Below are positions 7,797 through 53,210 of a stretch of 64,000 nucleotides of DNA, piece by piece (the stretch's first letter is position 1; the number at the start of each line of letters is the position of its first letter). The translations under genes and the position numbers were made by a program. Under the pieces are notes generated by a model. It saw only the letters and a list, made by a program, of their open reading frames with translations, made no database searches and had not been told where the DNA came from. Source of the DNA: Myroides marinus. Lineage in GTDB: Bacteria > Bacteroidota > Bacteroidia > Flavobacteriales > Flavobacteriaceae. The stretch spans positions 124,001 through 188,000 of the forward strand of contig NZ_FNYS01000005.1 in assembly GCF_900109075.1 (NCBI RefSeq). The letters run 5' to 3'.

Positions 7797-10700
7797 ATGC
7801 ATATCACTAAAAGATCACTGTTGTCTCTTGCCTTTTTAATGGCTGTGACAGCTAGCAGTTACGCTCAACAGAAGAAAGCACCTATAGTGGTGAGAGACGC
7901 TGAGACGCTTCTACCCTTACCTGGTGTTACGATAGAGAACATCACTAAAGACGAAGTTGGAATCACGCAAGATGACGGTCATTTCGAATTAGATAATGGA
8001 GATTTAAAAGAGATTAAACTTCGCTTATCTTATATCGGATATTTCGATAAAGAAATCACGATTAAAGGTGGAGATTATCCAAGCTTTATTGATTTAGATG
8101 TAGAAGATAACTTATTAGAAGGAATCGTAGTTACAGGATATACTAAACAATCGCGTTCTAAAACAACGGGAGCGGTTAGTAAAATAGAGGCACAATCGCT
8201 TAATAAGTCACAAGTGAGTTCTATGGATCAAGCTCTACAAGGACAAGTACCTGGGCTTTATGTAGCTTCTCCTTCTGGGCAGCCTGGTACACCTGGTAGA
8301 GTTACTATTCGTGGTATCGGTTCGCTTCAAGATGAAAATACCAATCCCCTGTATGTATTAAATGGAATGCCTATCTCACCAGCAACCTTCTCTGCTCTTA
8401 ATCCTGAAGATTTTGAAGATATCACTGTACTAAAAGATGCGGCTGCTACCGCTCAATATGGTTCTAGAGGTGCTAATGGAGTTATCGTTATCACATCTAA
8501 GAAAGGACCTAGTGACTCTAATGGAATGAGAGTAACTTATCAAACACAATATGGATATTCTGAAGCTAATAATAGCAAATGGGATATGATGAATACCAAC
8601 CAACGTCTTCAATTTGAAGAGATGCTTCAAGATCAAGATTTACCAGGATGGGCTTATTCTAGAAACAATCCTTATAAGATAGTAAACGGTGTTCAGGTGG
8701 CTAAGTCTGATGTGGATTATATAGAAGGAGATAGACGCTTAGCAGAGATTAGAAACACTAATATTGATTGGAAAAAGAAGCTTCTTAGAAGAGGGATTAA
8801 TCAATCTCACAATTTGAGCTTTCAAGGAGGAAATAATGAAACACAACACTATACTTCTGTGAATTACTTCAAACAAGATGGAGTGCTTTATAACTCTGGT
8901 ATAGAGAAATTTAATGTGAATAGTAATATTCATCACAAATCAGGTAGACTGAGCTCTAACTTCTTTATCAATTTAGCAAATATCAACAGTCAATCTTCTG
9001 AATCTGATTTTGATGTAAGTGAAACTAATCCTGTGGCATCAATGTATTTCGCTTTGCCTTATGAAAATCCTTATGATGAAAATGGAAGGCTTACACCTGG
9101 TCCTAATAGATTTGGTACTAATGCACTATCAATGTACAATGATGTTAGTAGAAGAGAAAAACAACAGAAAGGTGTATTAGCAGGTAACTTCTCTTTTGAT
9201 ATTACAGATGATTTAAAACTGACAAGCACATTAGGTGTTGACTATACCAAAATAGGCAATACACATATCATCAAACCTGATACTTACTTTGGAGATCTTG
9301 TAGAAGAAGGTGGAAAAGGGATGTTTAGTCAAGGAGATCAGACTAATATTGGGCTAATGGCTAACTTCGGTGCCAACTATAAATACAGATGGGATGCACA
9401 TGAGATAGAGGCTATCGCCTTAATGGAGATGAACAGACAGAAGTATAACTACCACGGATTTACAGGTTATGGATTAATAGACGGATTAGATCACACAGCT
9501 GGTGGTATTACTCCAGGTACTCCTGAGAATGACTTTATCCCTAAGGTAGAGGGTAGAGAATCTGAGAACTTATTGGTATCTCAAGTGGCTTTACTTAGAT
9601 ATTCTTATGAGAATAGATTTACATTATCTACTAGTTTTAGACGTGATGGGTCGTCACGTGTTCCTAGCAACAATAGATATAAGCACTTCTACGCTGTAGG
9701 TGGTAGTTGGAATATGAAATCAGAAGACTTTATGCAAGACATAGATGTAGTATCTATGGCACGTCTTAGAGCTAGTTATGGTTTGACTGGTAATGCTAAT
9801 GGATTTGCGAGTGACTTCGGATACCGTCGTTTATATGGCCCGGGACAATATAACGGAGGTACTGCATTAAACCCAATCTCTCCAGGTAACAGTAACTACA
9901 ACTGGGAAATGAATAGAATACTAGATTTAGGTTTAGAGTTTGGATTATTTGGAAATAGATTAGTGGGAGAAGTAGACTTCTACAACCGTATTACAAGTGA
10001 TTTATTCTTAGATAGATCACTGTCTAGCACTTCTGGTTTTGAATCAGTAGCTGATAATATGGGTAAAATTAGAAATAGAGGTATCGAGCTAAAACTATCA
10101 GGTGACGTGATTAGAAGTGGAGACTTTACTTTTAACCTAGGTGTAAACTTTGCTTACAACAAAAACAAAATCTTGAGTTTAGGTGATGAGGATGAAATCA
10201 TCACTGAGGACTACTCTATCCACCAAGTAGGTAAACAAATTGGACATTTCTATATGGTAAAATGGGCGGGCGTAGATCAACAAACTGGTGCTCCATTATA
10301 CTATGACAAAGAAGGAAATATTACAACTACTTATGATCCTGACAATGCTGTGTTAGTAAAAGGTGGTTTTGACCCTGCTATAAAAGGTGGTTTTACAACG
10401 AACTTTAAATATAAGAATCTAGAAGTAAGTGCTCTATTCTCATTTATCAAAGGGATGTATCGTCTAAATACAGGTGAGTTCTACAGAACTTCTGCTGACC
10501 AGACTTATCGCATCTATAACCAATCTACAAGTATGTTAGATATGTGGCAAAACCCTGGTGATGTAAGTGATAATCCTAGCGCAAAATATGCTCGTTACAT
10601 GACAGATAGAGAGTTACAAAAAGCTGATTACTTAAAGCTTAGAAACCTAAGTGTAAACTATAAGTTTAAAAACTTTGGTAAATGGAATAAAGTGGTGAAA

Positions 10701-14800: not shown

Positions 14801-15613
14801 TTATTTTAATTCTAAATCAAATATATCCCTTAGCTTCTCTACTTCAGGATTAATATTGACAAAATGTTGGTACTTATCTTTCGAATCAAGTACTCGTTTT
14901 ACTAATTTTATTTCTTCATTTACTATAATAGTTAACTCAATATCAAAGTTCTGTAATTTCTTTCTAAGGTAGTTAACTAAATCATACTTATTTTCTTCGA
15001 AGCTTAACTTCGACCCTGCATTAGGTAATTCTAGTTCTATTTGGAATCCTTTTAGAGTAGGTCTAGCCATATTCATCAATGAAGCCATTAATGGTAATCC
15101 TCCACGAAGTAAACGATCCATATAATAGTTCCACTCTCCAATTAATTGGTCATAAGTAAAAGGCTCTTTTGGTAAATCATCTGGATTAATCACATTCTTC
15201 TCTAAAGAAGAAGCTAGCTCCTTTCGATTTCGAATACTAGTTAAAGATAATGCCGAAGCTCTCTTAGGTTGTGGTACTTCATTGCCACTCGTTTCATTAC
15301 CTGTTACGTTGTTAGCAGGAGTGATAACACTATTTAGAGGAGCCTGACTTACTTCATTACTTGGAATACTTGTAGCAGGAGCACTATACTGCTCATTTTC
15401 TACTTGTGCAAAAGTAGATTGAGAAGGCATTATACTATTCTCTACAGCAGAAACTTGAATATTTGTTTGTTGTAATATACTTAATTCTTGGCTATCTACT
15501 TGAGTATGATTATTACCAACTTGACTAAGACCACTTAATACAGTATTATTACTAAACTGGCCACTTGTCAATAAATCCCTAAGAACAGAAGCAGGAATTA
15601 TGAATTGCTTATC
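14801..15613 (-). CDS. dnaX: DNA polymerase III tau-specific C-terminal region, reached by -1 frameshift from the dnaX ORF
   Basis: This frame continues dnaX after the A10 run at 15614-15623. With a one-base backward slip the product reads ...GEKKK then DKQFIIPASVLRDL and on to the end, adding 270 residues for a tau of about 627. A TTG in this frame at 15571 exists, but the conserved-looking FIIPAS segment lies upstream of it, so independent initiation is unlikely. The region has a Gln/Ser/Asn-rich linker (about the first 110 residues) and a C-terminal domain (PFTYDQLIGEWNYYMDRLLRGG... FEENKYDLVNYLRKKLQNFDIELTII) equivalent to the tau domain contacting the polymerase alpha subunit. A single-base homopolymer error in the assembly is the main alternative. 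Confidence 0.8.
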   Translation of the reverse strand, partial: DKQFIIPASVLRDLLTSGQFSNNTVLSGLSQVGNNHTQVDSQELSILQQTNIQVSAVENSIMPSQSTFAQVENEQYSAPATSIPSNEVSQAPLNSVITPANNVTGNETSGNEVPQPKRASALSLTSIRNRKELASSLEKNVINPDDLPKEPFTYDQLIGEWNYYMDRLLRGGLPLMASLMNMARPTLKGFQIELELPNAGSKLSFEENKYDLVNYLRKKLQNFDIELTIIVNEEIKLVKRVLDSKDKYQHFVNINPEVEKLRDIFDLELK

Positions 15614-16683
15614 TTTTTTTTTTCGCCTTCAAAAGACAAAGACGCTAACTGCATAAGACACAACTCTACTAATAACCTTTGGTTCTGACTTGATTTATAC
15701 TTCAAATCACAATCATTTGCAATCTCAATTGCTTGCAAAAGAAATGGCATTGATGTTTGTTGAGATTGATTGTAGAATAATTGCTTACCATGATCACCTA
15801 TTTCTAACAGATTTATTGTCTCAGGAGTCTTACATACCATTAGATCTCTAAAATGAGATGCTAATCCAGATACGAAGTGATGACCGTCAAATCCTTTAGA
15901 TAAGATGTCGTTATAAGCAAGTAACAAACCTGGGATATTACCTTGTAGTACCATATCTGTAATACGGATATAATACTCAAAATCTAATACATTAAGATTC
16001 TCTGCTACTGCCTGTCTAGTCAAGTTTCTACCACAATAAGATACTACTCTATCAAAAATAGACAAAGCATCACGCATAGCTCCATCAGCTTTTTGAGCGA
16101 TAATACGCAGTGCATCATCTTCAAAGTTGATACCTTGGCTTCTAGCTACGTCTGCTAAATGATTAGCAGCATCTGCTATAGTAATACGTTTAAAGTCAAA
16201 GATCTGACATCTAGACAATATCGTTGGTATAATCTTGTGTTTCTCTGTAGTTGCTAAAATAAAGATAGCATGACGTGGTGGCTCTTCTAATGTTTTTAAG
16301 AAAGCATTAAAAGCAGCTGAAGATAACATATGCACCTCATCTATAATATACACCTTGTACTTACCTGTTTGTGGAGGTATACGTACTTGGTCAATAAGAC
16401 TTCTGATATCATCCACCGAGTTATTAGAGGCAGCATCTAGTTCAAATACATTAAATGCGAAATCCTCATTCGGATCGTCATACCCTTCTTGGTTTATCTT
16501 TCTTGCTAAAATACGAGCACAAGTCGTCTTTCCTACTCCTCTAGGTCCAGTAAATAATAAAGCTTGTGCTAAGTGATTACTCTCTATAGCATTAACTAGT
16601 GTACTTGTAATAGCTTGTTGTCCTACTACATCCTTAAATGTCTGGGGTCTATATTTTCGGGCAGATACGATAAATTGTTCCAT
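15598..16683 (-). CDS. dnaX: DNA polymerase III subunit gamma (DnaX clamp-loader ATPase)
   Basis: 361-residue zero-frame product. AAA+ features are Walker A GPRGVGKT (46-53), Walker B VYIIDE (111-116), sensor 1 (ILATTEKHKIIPTILSRC) with the arginine finger motif SRC, and the clamp-loader collar domain to the end. It loads the beta clamp at replication forks. The C4 zinc module normally between Walker A and the DAASNNSVDDIR motif is missing; only about 17 residues (NQEGYDDPNEDFAFNVFE) are there, which I believe is usual in Flavobacteria. The ORF stops nine residues after a run of ten A that contains the heptamer A AAA AAG in frame, the E. coli dnaX slippery site. Confidence 0.93.
   Translation of the reverse strand: MEQFIVSARKYRPQTFKDVVGQQAITSTLVNAIESNHLAQALLFTGPRGVGKTTCARILARKINQEGYDDPNEDFAFNVFELDAASNNSVDDIRSLIDQVRIPPQTGKYKVYIIDEVHMLSSAAFNAFLKTLEEPPRHAIFILATTEKHKIIPTILSRCQIFDFKRITIADAANHLADVARSQGINFEDDALRIIAQKADGAMRDALSIFDRVVSYCGRNLTRQAVAENLNVLDFEYYIRITDMVLQGNIPGLLLAYNDILSKGFDGHHFVSGLASHFRDLMVCKTPETINLLEIGDHGKQLFYNQSQQTSMPFLLQAIEIANDCDLKYKSSQNQRLLVELCLMQLASLSFEGEKKKISNS
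15613..15623 (-). promoter_or_regulatory. dnaX: dnaX slippery sequence (programmed frameshift candidate)
   Basis: Minus strand reads G-A10-G. In the zero frame it is GAA AAA AAA AAG, so A_AAA_AAG is correctly phased for tandem -1 slippage. Downstream, AAGCA and TGCTT can pair around an inner ATT/AAT stem, a weak stimulatory hairpin candidate. Transcriptional slippage on A10 (compare Thermus, A9) is equally possible. Confidence 0.65.
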
Positions 16684-25698: not shown

Positions 25699-26334
25699 TT
25701 ATTCGATAACTGTTAAAATATCTTCAAGTGCAAAACGTACTTTCTTCATAGGTAATAACCAATCATTTTCATGATCTCTTTCTCCTAATGCTAAAATAGT
25801 TACACTTTTTAATCCTTTTTTATCTAGTCCTAAAGCTTCATCTAATTGATCGTTATAAAAGCCTTCCATAGGAGAAGCATCTACTCTCAATTCTGCTGCT
25901 GCTGCAATAGCCATTCCGAAAGCAATATAAGCTTGACGAGCGGCATGTTGAAACTGTTGGTCTTTAGTCAAACTATTAAAGTTTCCTTTTATAGAAGCTT
26001 TATAGTCATCTGTAGAACCAGGAGTTAACTCCCTAATTGTTTCTACATTTTTAAACACAGCATCAATGCGCTCTTCTGTATAAGCATCCCATGCTGCAAA
26101 AACCAATACATGAGAACTGTCTTTTATCTGACTTTGATTCATTACCACAGGAACTAACTTTTCTTTTAACTCCTGATTTTTTATCAATATCATTTCAAAA
26201 GGTTGTAACCCAGAAGATGTAGGCGCCATACGAGCAGCCTCTATAATCTGCATTACTTTATCCTCTGCTACTTTTACTGTATTGTTATATTTCTTAGTAG
26301 CATAACGCCACTGTAGACTATTTAATAACTCCAT
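25699..26334 (-). CDS. NAD(P)H-dependent nitroreductase family flavoprotein
   Basis: 211 residues, NfsB-like. FMN-binding landmarks are the N-terminal RYATKKYN, EAARMAPTSSGLQPFEMILIKN, the central HAARQAYIAFGMAIAAAAELRVDASPMEGF and the C-terminal LGLDKKGLKSVTILALGERD. Such enzymes reduce nitroaromatics and quinones as FMN homodimers. It follows purC by 11 bp on the same strand and may be cotranscribed with it; no functional link to purine synthesis is apparent. Confidence 0.93.
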   Translation of the reverse strand: MELLNSLQWRYATKKYNNTVKVAEDKVMQIIEAARMAPTSSGLQPFEMILIKNQELKEKLVPVVMNQSQIKDSSHVLVFAAWDAYTEERIDAVFKNVETIRELTPGSTDDYKASIKGNFNSLTKDQQFQHAARQAYIAFGMAIAAAAELRVDASPMEGFYNDQLDEALGLDKKGLKSVTILALGERDHENDWLLPMKKVRFALEDILTVIE

Positions 26335-26345
26335 AAATATATAAA

Positions 26346-27299
26346 TTACCTCTTAGCTAAAAATGCTAAGACATTATTCTCTATACGTTCATTGATATTA
26401 GAGACATCCGCTTTTACAAAAGGTTCACCTATAATGTTCTCGTATAATTCGATATAACGTTCAGACACACTGTTGATGTATTCTTCTGTCATTTCAGGTA
26501 CTACTTGTCCCTCTTTTCCTTGAAAACCATTACTGATTAACCATTGTCTTACAAATTCTTTAGACAATTGTTTTTGAGCCTCCCCTTTTGCTTGTCTTTC
26601 TTCGTATCCTTCTGCATAGAAATAACGAGAAGAATCAGGCGTGTGTATCTCATCAATTAACACAATCTTTCCGTCTTTAGTCTTCCCAAATTCATATTTA
26701 GTATCCACTAAGATAAGTCCCCTTTCTGCAGCTATCTCAGTTCCTCTTTTATAAAGTGCGTGAGTGTACTGCTCTAATACTAGATAATCCTCTTCTGACA
26801 CAATACCTCTAGCTAAGATATCTTCGCGAGAAATATCAACATCATGTAATCCTAAATCCTCTTTTGTAGAAGGAGTGATGATTGGCATAGGTAGCTTATC
26901 ATTCTCTTTTAATCCTTCTGCTAATGTTACTCCGCATAACACTCTCTTTCCTTCTGCATATTCACGTGCAGCATGCCCTGCTAAGTATCCTCTGATTACC
27001 ATCTCCACTTTAAACGGCTCACACACGTGTCCTACCGCTACATTAGGATCTGGAGTAGCCACTAACCAGTTCGGAACGATGTCACTTGTCATCTCCATAA
27101 ACTTAGTAGCTATCTGATTTAAGATTTGTCCTTTAAAAGGGATTCCTTTAGGCATAATAACGTCAAAAGCTGATAATCTATCCGTAGCAACCATAACCAA
27201 TAGGTCGTCTGCTATGTTGTAAACTTCTCTTACTTTTCCGCGGTAAACTGACTTTTGATTTGGAAACTCAAAACCCGTTTTTGTGATTGTGTTATTCAT
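26346..27299 (-). CDS. purC: Phosphoribosylaminoimidazole-succinocarboxamide synthase (SAICAR synthetase)
   Basis: 317 residues. Catalyses the ATP-dependent condensation of CAIR with aspartate in de novo purine synthesis. Clear family blocks: [10 protein letters not shown] (nucleotide loop), [88 protein letters not shown]. The longer eukaryote-like length is usual for Bacteroidota. It lies 34 bp downstream of the E1 gene stop on the same strand. Confidence 0.97.
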
Positions 27300-27332
27300 A
27301 TTCTTGTTATAGTTGTGTAGTTCTTTTCTATT

Positions 27333-29318
27333 CTAGTAGGCCATTAATTCTAATAGTGCTGTTTCAAATCTGTCCTTAGGCAGATACTGATCTTCTAAAG
27401 CTTTCACAAATGGTATGGCTGTTTCTAAACTAGCTACCCTTCTAACAGGTGCATCTAAGTATTCAAAACAATTCTCCATAATCATCGCCGACATATCACT
27501 TGCGATTCCTCCGAACATGGAATCTTCTTGCAAAATTATAACTTTATTTGTTTTTTTCACTGATTTAAATACAGTTTCCTCATCTAAAGGTTGTAATGTG
27601 CGTAAATCTATCAAATCAGCCTTAATATCAGGATGTTTATCTAAAACTTCCATCGCCCAATGCACTCCTGCTCCGAAAGAAATAACTGTAACATCTCCAC
27701 CTTCTCTTAATACACCTGCCTTTCCAAACGGCAGTGTATAATACGCTTTAGGAACATCCTGATAAATACTTCTATACAACAACTTATGTTCAAAGAAGAT
27801 TACTGGATTAGGATCATTAATAGCAGTTGCCATTAATCCTTTAGCATCATAAGGAAATGCTGGATACACTACCTTTAACCCAGGTGTTTTAGTAAACCAT
27901 GCTTCATTAGTCTGAGAGTGAAACGGTCCTGCCTGAGTACCTCCTCCACATGGCATACGTACCACTACATCTGCTTTCTCATTCCAGCGATAGTGTATCT
28001 TTGCTAGATAATTCACTATTGGATTAAACCCTGTAGACACAAAATCTCCAAACTGCATCTCCATAATCGCCTTTCCTCCATTTATAGAATATCCCATAGC
28101 AGCAGATACTACAGCACTCTCACAGATAGGAGTATTGCGAATACGCCCTTTGCCAAATTGCTCTACAAAACCATCTGTCACTTTAAACGCTCCTCCATAC
28201 TCTGCAATATCTTGCCCCATAATAACTAGATTATCATGACGCTCAAATGACTGCTTTAACCCTTCTGATATCGCATCTATTAATCTAATATTTGCTACTT
28301 CACCAGTAGGTTTAACATCTTCATACGCATAAGGCGCATACATATCTTCTAATTCTGTCGCTAGATCAGCCACTATAGCTGGCTCTTCTTGTGTAGTCTT
28401 CCAGTCTTTATCTATTTCTTTCTTAAAAGCTGCTCTTATCTCTTCATCAGCAATATCAGTTAGTACACTTATCTCTTTCAGATAAGTTCTGTAATTCTCT
28501 ACTGGATCTTTTAGCTGCCACATATCCATAAGTTCTTGTGGTACATACTTAGTTCCACTCGCTTCTTCGTGTCCGCGCATTCTAAAAGTCAAGAATTCTA
28601 TAAGCACAGGTCTAGGGTTCTCACGAATAGACTGAGCCAATGCGCTAATCTGTTGATATACCTCTAGTATATTGTTCCCATCGATAATATGACTTTCCAT
28701 GCCATATCCCTTCGCTCTATCAGCTAGATGCTCACATCTATATTGTTCATTAGTAGGTGTAGATAATCCATATCCATTATTTTCAATAACAAACAACACA
28801 GGAAGATCCCACACAGAAGCTATATTTAATGCCTCGTGAAAGTCTCCTTCTGAAGTTCCTCCTTCTCCTGTAAATACAGCTGTTATTTTCTTTTCTTGAC
28901 GAAGTGTATGTGCTAGCGCGATTCCATCAGCCACTCCTAGTTGAGGACCTAAGTGAGAAATCATCCCAACGATGTGGTATTCTTGCGTTCCAAAGTGAAA
29001 TGAACGCTCTCTTCCTTTAGTAAAGCCATTTGCTTTTCCTTGCCATTGAGAGAAAAGACGGTAAAGTGGAATATCTCTTGAAGTAAACACTCCTAAGTTG
29101 CGGTGCATAGGTAAGATATATTCATCCTTATCTAAGCTAGCTGTTATACCTACGCTAATAGCCTCCTGTCCTATTCCTGAGAACCATTTAGACACCTTAC
29201 CTTGTCTGATTAAGATAAGCATCTTCTCCTCTATCATACGAGGCTTGAGTAGTTTTTTATAAAGTCCAAGTAACTCTTGGTCTGTTAAGTTTTTACGGTT
29301 GTAATGTAATTGTTTCAT
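27333..29318 (-). CDS. Fused alpha/beta 2-oxoacid (branched-chain) dehydrogenase E1
   Basis: 661 residues from ATG 29318 (KQLHYNRKNLTDQELLGLYKK); upstream in-frame codons to 29366 give an implausible hydrophobic, Cys-containing extension. The alpha domain carries RMIEEKMLILIRQGKVSKWF, SGIGQEAISVG, and the ThDP motif GEGGTSEGDFHEALN...ENNGYGLS. The beta domain starts about residue 335 (NIRLIDAISEGLKQSF) with GQDIAEYGGAFKVTDG and RNTPICESAVVSAAMGYS. It makes branched acyl-CoA primers from valine, leucine and isoleucine keto acids, consistent with the iso-branched lipids typical of Flavobacteria. No E2 or E3 gene is adjacent. Confidence 0.93.
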   Translation of the reverse strand: MKQLHYNRKNLTDQELLGLYKKLLKPRMIEEKMLILIRQGKVSKWFSGIGQEAISVGITASLDKDEYILPMHRNLGVFTSRDIPLYRLFSQWQGKANGFTKGRERSFHFGTQEYHIVGMISHLGPQLGVADGIALAHTLRQEKKITAVFTGEGGTSEGDFHEALNIASVWDLPVLFVIENNGYGLSTPTNEQYRCEHLADRAKGYGMESHIIDGNNILEVYQQISALAQSIRENPRPVLIEFLTFRMRGHEEASGTKYVPQELMDMWQLKDPVENYRTYLKEISVLTDIADEEIRAAFKKEIDKDWKTTQEEPAIVADLATELEDMYAPYAYEDVKPTGEVANIRLIDAISEGLKQSFERHDNLVIMGQDIAEYGGAFKVTDGFVEQFGKGRIRNTPICESAVVSAAMGYSINGGKAIMEMQFGDFVSTGFNPIVNYLAKIHYRWNEKADVVVRMPCGGGTQAGPFHSQTNEAWFTKTPGLKVVYPAFPYDAKGLMATAINDPNPVIFFEHKLLYRSIYQDVPKAYYTLPFGKAGVLREGGDVTVISFGAGVHWAMEVLDKHPDIKADLIDLRTLQPLDEETVFKSVKKTNKVIILQEDSMFGGIASDMSAMIMENCFEYLDAPVRRVASLETAIPFVKALEDQYLPKDRFETALLELMAY

Positions 29319-53167: not shown

Positions 53168-53210
53168 CCAAAAAAAAAAGAGTGTACATTTAGATGTACA
53201 CTCTCTCTTA
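53168..53210 (-). terminator. Intrinsic terminator of the truncated-haemoglobin gene
   Basis: Stem GAGTGTACAT/ATGTACACTC (53180-53189 with 53194-53203), followed by T10 on the minus strand. A decayed copy lies at about 52357-52395. Confidence 0.9.

Follow-up and report, generated by a model that had tools for sequence, protein, structure and literature searches.

Two forms of the DnaX protein, gamma and tau, can be produced from one gene, and three described systems are relevant for the gene examined here. In Thermus thermophilus, dnaX is reported to undergo transcriptional slippage on an A-run of nine, with tau read from the frame of the gene itself and gamma produced by the slip (Baranov et al., 2005, PMC1088944; Atkins et al., 2016, PMC5009743). 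The dnaX gene of Escherichia coli, which we read as a control (L340), contains the heptamer A_AAA_AAG in register, no run longer than six, the sequence AGGGAG ten bases upstream and a predicted stem of -19.7 kcal/mol within 45 nt. Finally, Antonov et al. (2013) reported two-ORF dnaX genes, namely, 17 genes of 12 genera, nine of these with 10 A, for which transcriptional realignment was predicted (PMC3711429). Here we describe the dnaX gene of Myroides marinus, which lies on the minus strand of an analyzed stretch of 64,000 nucleotides (hereinafter, the window; coordinates are those of the window unless a contig is named), and compare it with its homologs in the same genus, family, order, class and phylum.

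Results

The dnaX gene in the window consists of two open reading frames. The zero-frame ORF (15598..16683, minus strand, with the start of the gamma frame at 16683) encodes the gamma form of DnaX, a protein of 361 aa that comprises the AAA+ ATPase, the lid and domain III, as judged from the list of open reading frames and from profile searches in which this part matched PF13177, PF00004, PF22608 and PF12169, the last of these at residues 222-350, as well as TIGR02397 with an E-value of 2.8e-115. Close to the end of this frame is the candidate slippage site, a run of ten A at 15614..15623 (minus strand; T10 on the plus strand), which falls within the codons GAA AAA AAA AAG and the last six A of which, together with the following G, make up the heptamer A_AAA_AAG, in register, at 15613..15619 (minus strand). 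The gamma frame ends with a TAA at 15598..15600 (minus strand), four codons (I S N S) past the AAG codon, and the third, +1 frame contains a TAA directly past the run, at 15609..15611 (minus strand), that is, at a distance of 0 codons. The -1 frame remains open and encodes the tau-specific tail (14801..15613, minus strand), 270 codons followed by a stop at 14801-14803; the tail was recognized from the list of open reading frames and from the match of its residues 51-269 to the C-terminal part of NF011531 (positions 397-613 of the 614 in the model, E-value of 1.8e-19). In the window, tau can be reached through one A more, two A fewer or a -1 ribosomal shift, and its length is 627 aa if the run gains one A or the frame shifts by -1. 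Both marks of a two-ORF dnaX are thus found here, namely, gamma and tau frames that differ by -1 at the DNA level and an A10 run at the transition. The earlier note on this stretch of DNA had claimed just such a split, with a zero-frame gamma of 361 aa, a -1-frame tau of about 627 aa and a correctly phased heptamer, all of which is confirmed by the letters; however, it had placed the zero-frame stop nine residues past the ten A rather than four codons past AAG.

For comparison, we read 258 loci (252 distinct sequences) that came from 80 named loci, from genomes of the same genus and from a one-per-genus sampling of the family; the count of 252 does not include L001, which is another gene, L002 and L083, both of which duplicate the window, or six identical sequences. 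Among the 80 named loci, several are metagenome bins that carry the names of other genera; these were retained on the basis of similarity. In the 61 genomes of the genus, the one of the window included, the DnaX match was full-length in 59, partial in one and only distant in one, and 30 loci were read; among the 59 full-length matches, the open frame was at most 401 codons long in 58 and reached 609 codons in one. The family sampling yielded matches in 196 of 199 genomes and, besides the window and G060, the 148 best-scoring of the other 194 were read. A wider sampling matched in 196 of 198 genomes and contributed 62 loci from outside the family. In the following, the near set denotes the window together with L003-L112 (104 distinct genes), and the further genera denote L113-L260 (148 loci).

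All 252 distinct related dnaX genes contain a run of nine to thirteen A at the junction, with exactly ten in 233 of them, eleven in nine, nine in five, twelve in three and thirteen in two. An alignment with other Flavobacteriaceae had been proposed as a check of the split, and both the run and the two frames are indeed kept in the relatives. The same run, A10 or A11, is present in 17 of 17 further loci of the genus and family, a few of which belong to genomes already counted, and 28 of the 30 loci read from the order and class contain A9-A11, including three GC-rich ones (L293, L296 and L307, the first 1800 bases of which are 60-64% GC); the arrangement is split in 11 of these 30. In the phylum's other classes (L308-L339), a run of nine or ten was found in 16 of 32 loci and A6 or less in the other 16, with nothing between, so outside the class the junction run is patchy across the phylum, yet either present or absent. 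Given that the 4.16 Mb genome contains 23 exact A10 runs whereas A9-A13 is found at the junction in every one of the 252 genes, the conservation of the junction run is beyond chance. The 80 named loci (533 kb) similarly contain 84 A10 or T10 runs, and A10 is at the junction in 76 of the 80 dnaX genes there.

Two loci of the same class, both from one genus, differ in this respect: L300, with A7, and L304, with nothing above A6, lack a run of at least nine A, and tau is in frame in both. Conceivably, this lineage may have lost the slip site.

Codon choice at the junction is constrained as well. All 240 genes with Glu at the start of the run use GAA for it, compared with 6-89% GAA in ten other conserved Glu columns. 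For the next two Lys codons, AAA is used in 252 of 252 genes, whereas its share in nine other conserved Lys columns is 62-87%. A run that begins in a different codon phase, yet is A10 all the same, was found in five genes. Across the family, it is the A-run of 9-13 nt that is kept and not A_AAA_AAG: the heptamer is in register in 93 of the 107 genes with tau at -1, in 25 of the 139 with tau in frame and in none of the four at +1. In the 139 in-frame genes, the base after the run is T in 90 cases, G in 27 cases and C in 22 cases, and the heptamer as such is therefore not conserved there.

The tail shows a coding constraint even where it is split from gamma. In 49 pairs of nearest neighbors among the split genes, differences at the three codon positions of the tau frame number 1272, 929 and 3188 over 10922 codons. 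Over the whole set of 250 tails, identity exceeds 80% in 43 columns; when the 111 split and the 139 in-frame genes are considered separately, 41 of these columns are above 70% in each group. By the substitution pattern, the tail in the split genes is coding.

The frame of tau relative to gamma differs among the relatives. In the 252 genes, tau is in frame in 139, at -1 in 107 and at +1 in four; in the remaining two, the frame could not be told, with no long tail frame seen in the sequence at hand. The near set is mostly split (96 of 104 distinct genes, with 94 at -1 and two at +1, along with seven in frame and one not told), and the further genera are mostly in frame (132 of 148 loci, with 13 at -1, two at +1 and one not told, that is, 15 split). 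The split genes with A10 include those of named Flavobacterium relatives, for example L023 and L029. Together with a locus outside the 252 (L273, A10), there are five genes with tau at +1, the other four being L026 (A9), L078 (A12), L180 (A12) and L206 (A11). Mapped onto a single FastTree tree, built from the gamma part in 282 rows with the run excluded, changes between the in-frame and the split arrangement within the family number 17, or 15 when branches with support below 90 are collapsed, or 8 when those below 95 are collapsed. Because the tree needs 8 to 17 changes within the family, the frame switches represent more than one event.

Whichever frame encodes tau, stops are close to the run in the frames that do not. 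The farther of the two off-frame stops is at a median distance of 4 codons and at most 17 codons in the 252 genes (the two are at 4 and 0 in the window), whereas, among control positions taken from these genes, about 8.5% have stops that are equally close. The 139 in-frame genes, too, retain the A-run along with nearby stops in both other frames. An I-I-P sequence just past the run is kept in 85-96% of the 250 tails, and its conservation, with codons that hold a stop in another frame, probably explains part of the closeness of the stops.

Only two of the 23 exact A10 runs in the genome, those of dnaX and of L392, join two sense frames of at least 70 codons. The other A10 of the window, at 53170-53179 (plus strand), is antisense to the start region of a lipoprotein-like ORF and is contained in no sense ORF of at least 70 codons. 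In L392 (G000:C45, around 8911-10520, minus strand), A10 joins two long sense frames, of which the upstream one encodes an endonuclease/exonuclease/phosphatase protein of 299 codons and ends 7 nt past the run; overlapping it in another frame are 246 codons for a second domain that belongs to the same Pfam family. With a cutoff of E<=1e-20, the downstream part was matched in 3 of 40 genomes: the one that contains L392 and, with 30-34% identity, two others from its order; none of 24 others of the genus gave a match. On account of this narrow distribution, L392 is not put forward as a second case of recoding; it may be a coupled gene pair, the result of an indel or a lineage-specific recoding site.

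Discussion

Taken together, the conserved run and the frames around it suggest that both gamma and tau are probably made from one dnaX gene by slippage, as the earlier note had suggested; its proposal of a slip at A10 is supported, whereas the weight that it had put on an E. coli-type site and on a stem is not. Of the two mechanisms it had offered, ribosomal frameshifting or transcriptional slippage, the comparison favors the latter. We consider it probable that the A10 at the gamma/tau junction serves for programmed slippage and that it is the RNA polymerase, rather than the ribosome, that slips. The polymerase would slip on A10 and produce a mixed pool of dnaX mRNAs. Translation would end after four codons on those with 10 or 13 A and immediately on those with 9 or 12 A, in either case yielding gamma, with its ATPase and domain III; those with 8, 11 or 14 A would run into the tail and yield tau, of 627 aa in the case of 11. 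Relatives would then retain the A-run and the stops, with only the tau-yielding run length changing. From the genes as they are written, then, we infer that slippage occurs, that the polymerase is the slipping machine and that the cell produces and uses both proteins.

The switching between in-frame and split arrangements, taken alone, fits either machine, provided that it works at near 50%, so other features have to be considered. The most serious alternative is -1 programmed ribosomal frameshifting at A_AAA_AAG, either alone or along with polymerase slippage, with the products reversed compared with E. coli, that is, with tau as the shifted form. We consider this unlikely, although by no means negligible. 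The heptamer is the same as in E. coli and is in register in the window and in most of the near relatives, as in the great majority of all -1 genes, which would allow a ribosomal shift there and counts against a polymerase-only view; furthermore, two overlapping heptamers would likewise hold the GAA codon constant. However, the heptamer is the part of the site that is not kept in the 139 in-frame genes, and tau could not be made by a -1 ribosomal shift in the five genes in which a net +1 is needed, a conclusion that rests on the homopolymer lengths in the respective assemblies.

The accessory signals of ribosomal shifting also do not appear as they do in E. coli. The earlier note had pointed to a weak AAGCA/TGCTT stem downstream of the run; the pairing is present in the letters, but it is absent from the predicted structure, and 185 of 200 shuffled sequences fold at least as well. 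For the region downstream of the run in the window, the fold of 74 nt has -8.4 kcal/mol and a z of +1.28, which points to no particular structure. In the relatives, represented by 60 of the 107 -1 genes and 60 of the 139 in-frame genes with 40 shuffles each, the mean z was 0.38 over 40 nt and -0.13 over 70 nt in the -1 genes, and -0.02 and -0.34, respectively, in the in-frame genes, with individual genes that fold better than their shuffled versions (e.g., L039, z -2.5). A Shine-Dalgarno (SD)-like sequence of four or more nucleotides at 7-22 nt, a distance comparable to that in E. coli, was detected in just 14 of the 252 genes. A GGAG, an SD-like core, is located directly before the run in 185 of the 252 genes, which can be counted in favor of a ribosomal shift, and it may have a role; however, the window has GGCG instead, and the GGAG was left out of the SD test because it is just 4 nt ahead of the last heptamer of the A10 run, unlike the more distant element of E. 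coli.

Two properties of the translation machinery bear on the same question. A genome scan turned up three tRNA-Lys genes, all UUU, on contig C29 at about 26118-27836, and no CUU, in a set that is incomplete in that no tRNA-Ala or tRNA-Ile turned up in it. The sole tRNA-Lys species found is the one of E. coli, where a review ties the sole tRNA-Lys(UUU) to ribosomal shifting and mentions two tRNA-Lys species for Thermus (PMC5009743). Conversely, ribosomes of Bacteroidia are reported to sequester the anti-SD (PMC9976891), and low prfB frameshifting is reported for Flavobacterium johnsoniae (PMC12421855), both of which speak against a ribosomal shift. Transcriptional slippage is favored, then, because the run and not the heptamer is kept, because of the five +1 genes, because no stem and no correctly spaced SD were found in these searches, and because the anti-SD is reportedly hidden.

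A broader form of the polymerase slippage hypothesis would cover the whole family and the 28 loci of the order and class with A9-A11. Under this scenario, dnaX would be decoded by polymerase slippage at 9-13 A, the frame of tau would drift since a slipping polymerase samples all three frames, and the class would rely on the polymerase since ribosomes with a hidden anti-SD could not run the E. coli mechanism. On the present comparison, we regard the chances of this generalization as evenly balanced.

The remaining alternatives dispense with slippage altogether or move it to the DNA. Gamma and the tail could be two separate proteins, the latter translated from an internal start, for which a TTG at 15571 in the tail ORF of the window is a possible candidate; this appears highly improbable, given that the first 20 tail codons contain no ATG, GTG or TTG in 100 of the 111 split genes (seven have GTG or TTG, and four have ATG) and that the tail is fused to gamma in frame in 139 of the 252 genes. 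No more plausible is phase variation at the DNA level, whereby the run length would differ between cells and tau would be switched on and off. A-runs can mutate by strand slippage, and the lengths do vary slightly, from A9 to A13, but a hypermutable contingency site would hardly keep exactly ten A in 233 of 252 genes, and tau is expected to be necessary for replication. It is scarcely credible that the split is false, whether through an error in sequencing or assembly or because dnaX is a pseudogene here: although homopolymers are error-prone and a few relatives deviate (L026, A9; L078, A12), error is very unlikely because all 252 genes have A9-A13 at the junction, and it is rejected for the group as a whole by the comparison of relatives, the split being found in 96 of 104 near genes from separate assemblies, including the single-contig genomes G010, G042 and G058 (loci L104, L099 and L096). 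A false split is also at odds with the 250 conserved tails, with the excess of third-position differences in the 49 pairs of split genes and with the status of the window gene as the sole close DnaX match in its genome, other listed matches showing 33-35% identity over part of the query.

If slippage indeed occurs at the run, these genes would be a case in which the slippage site of a replication gene is retained throughout a family even as the frame downstream of it switches many times, and they would offer a natural comparison between tau made by a slip and gamma made by a slip. They also make testable the question whether a bacterial class with ribosomes that ignore Shine-Dalgarno sequences uses the polymerase for recoding instead. 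On the practical side, a plain ORF call on such a dnaX yields gamma alone, and the tau tail is missed.

Comparison with known systems

The gene in the window has in common with E. coli dnaX the A_AAA_AAG heptamer in register and the same two products. The run in E. coli does not exceed A6, and the AGGGAG at 10 nt upstream and the strong stem of that gene have no counterpart found in the window; moreover, the shifted product is gamma in E. coli and tau in the window. As for Thermus, both genes have a run of at least nine A (nine in Thermus and ten in the window), close stops in the frames that do not encode tau, and gamma and tau from one gene. The two differ in that tau is in the DNA frame in Thermus whereas gamma is in the DNA frame in the window, and for this reason we do not assign the window to the Thermus type, although it may work in the same way; the in-frame relatives of the window do share the Thermus layout.

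The closest correspondence is with the two-ORF dnaX genes of Antonov et al., which share with the window the two ORFs, the -1 relation at the DNA level, the A10 junction and the need for recoding to produce tau; the members named in the part of that report cited here are three Chlorobi with shorter runs (PMC3711429). Beyond that set, the present counts also cover the sister arrangement, in which the same run is followed by tau in frame, as well as the +1 cases and the repeated switching. Among the titles and abstract openings on dnaX frameshifting or slippage that we covered, a partial selection that included those on Flavobacteri- and Bacteroidetes, none described family-wide switching of the dnaX frame. 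As far as we have seen, the gene in the window belongs to the known two-ORF, A10 kind of dnaX, to which the present analysis adds the breadth of the distribution and the counted switches.
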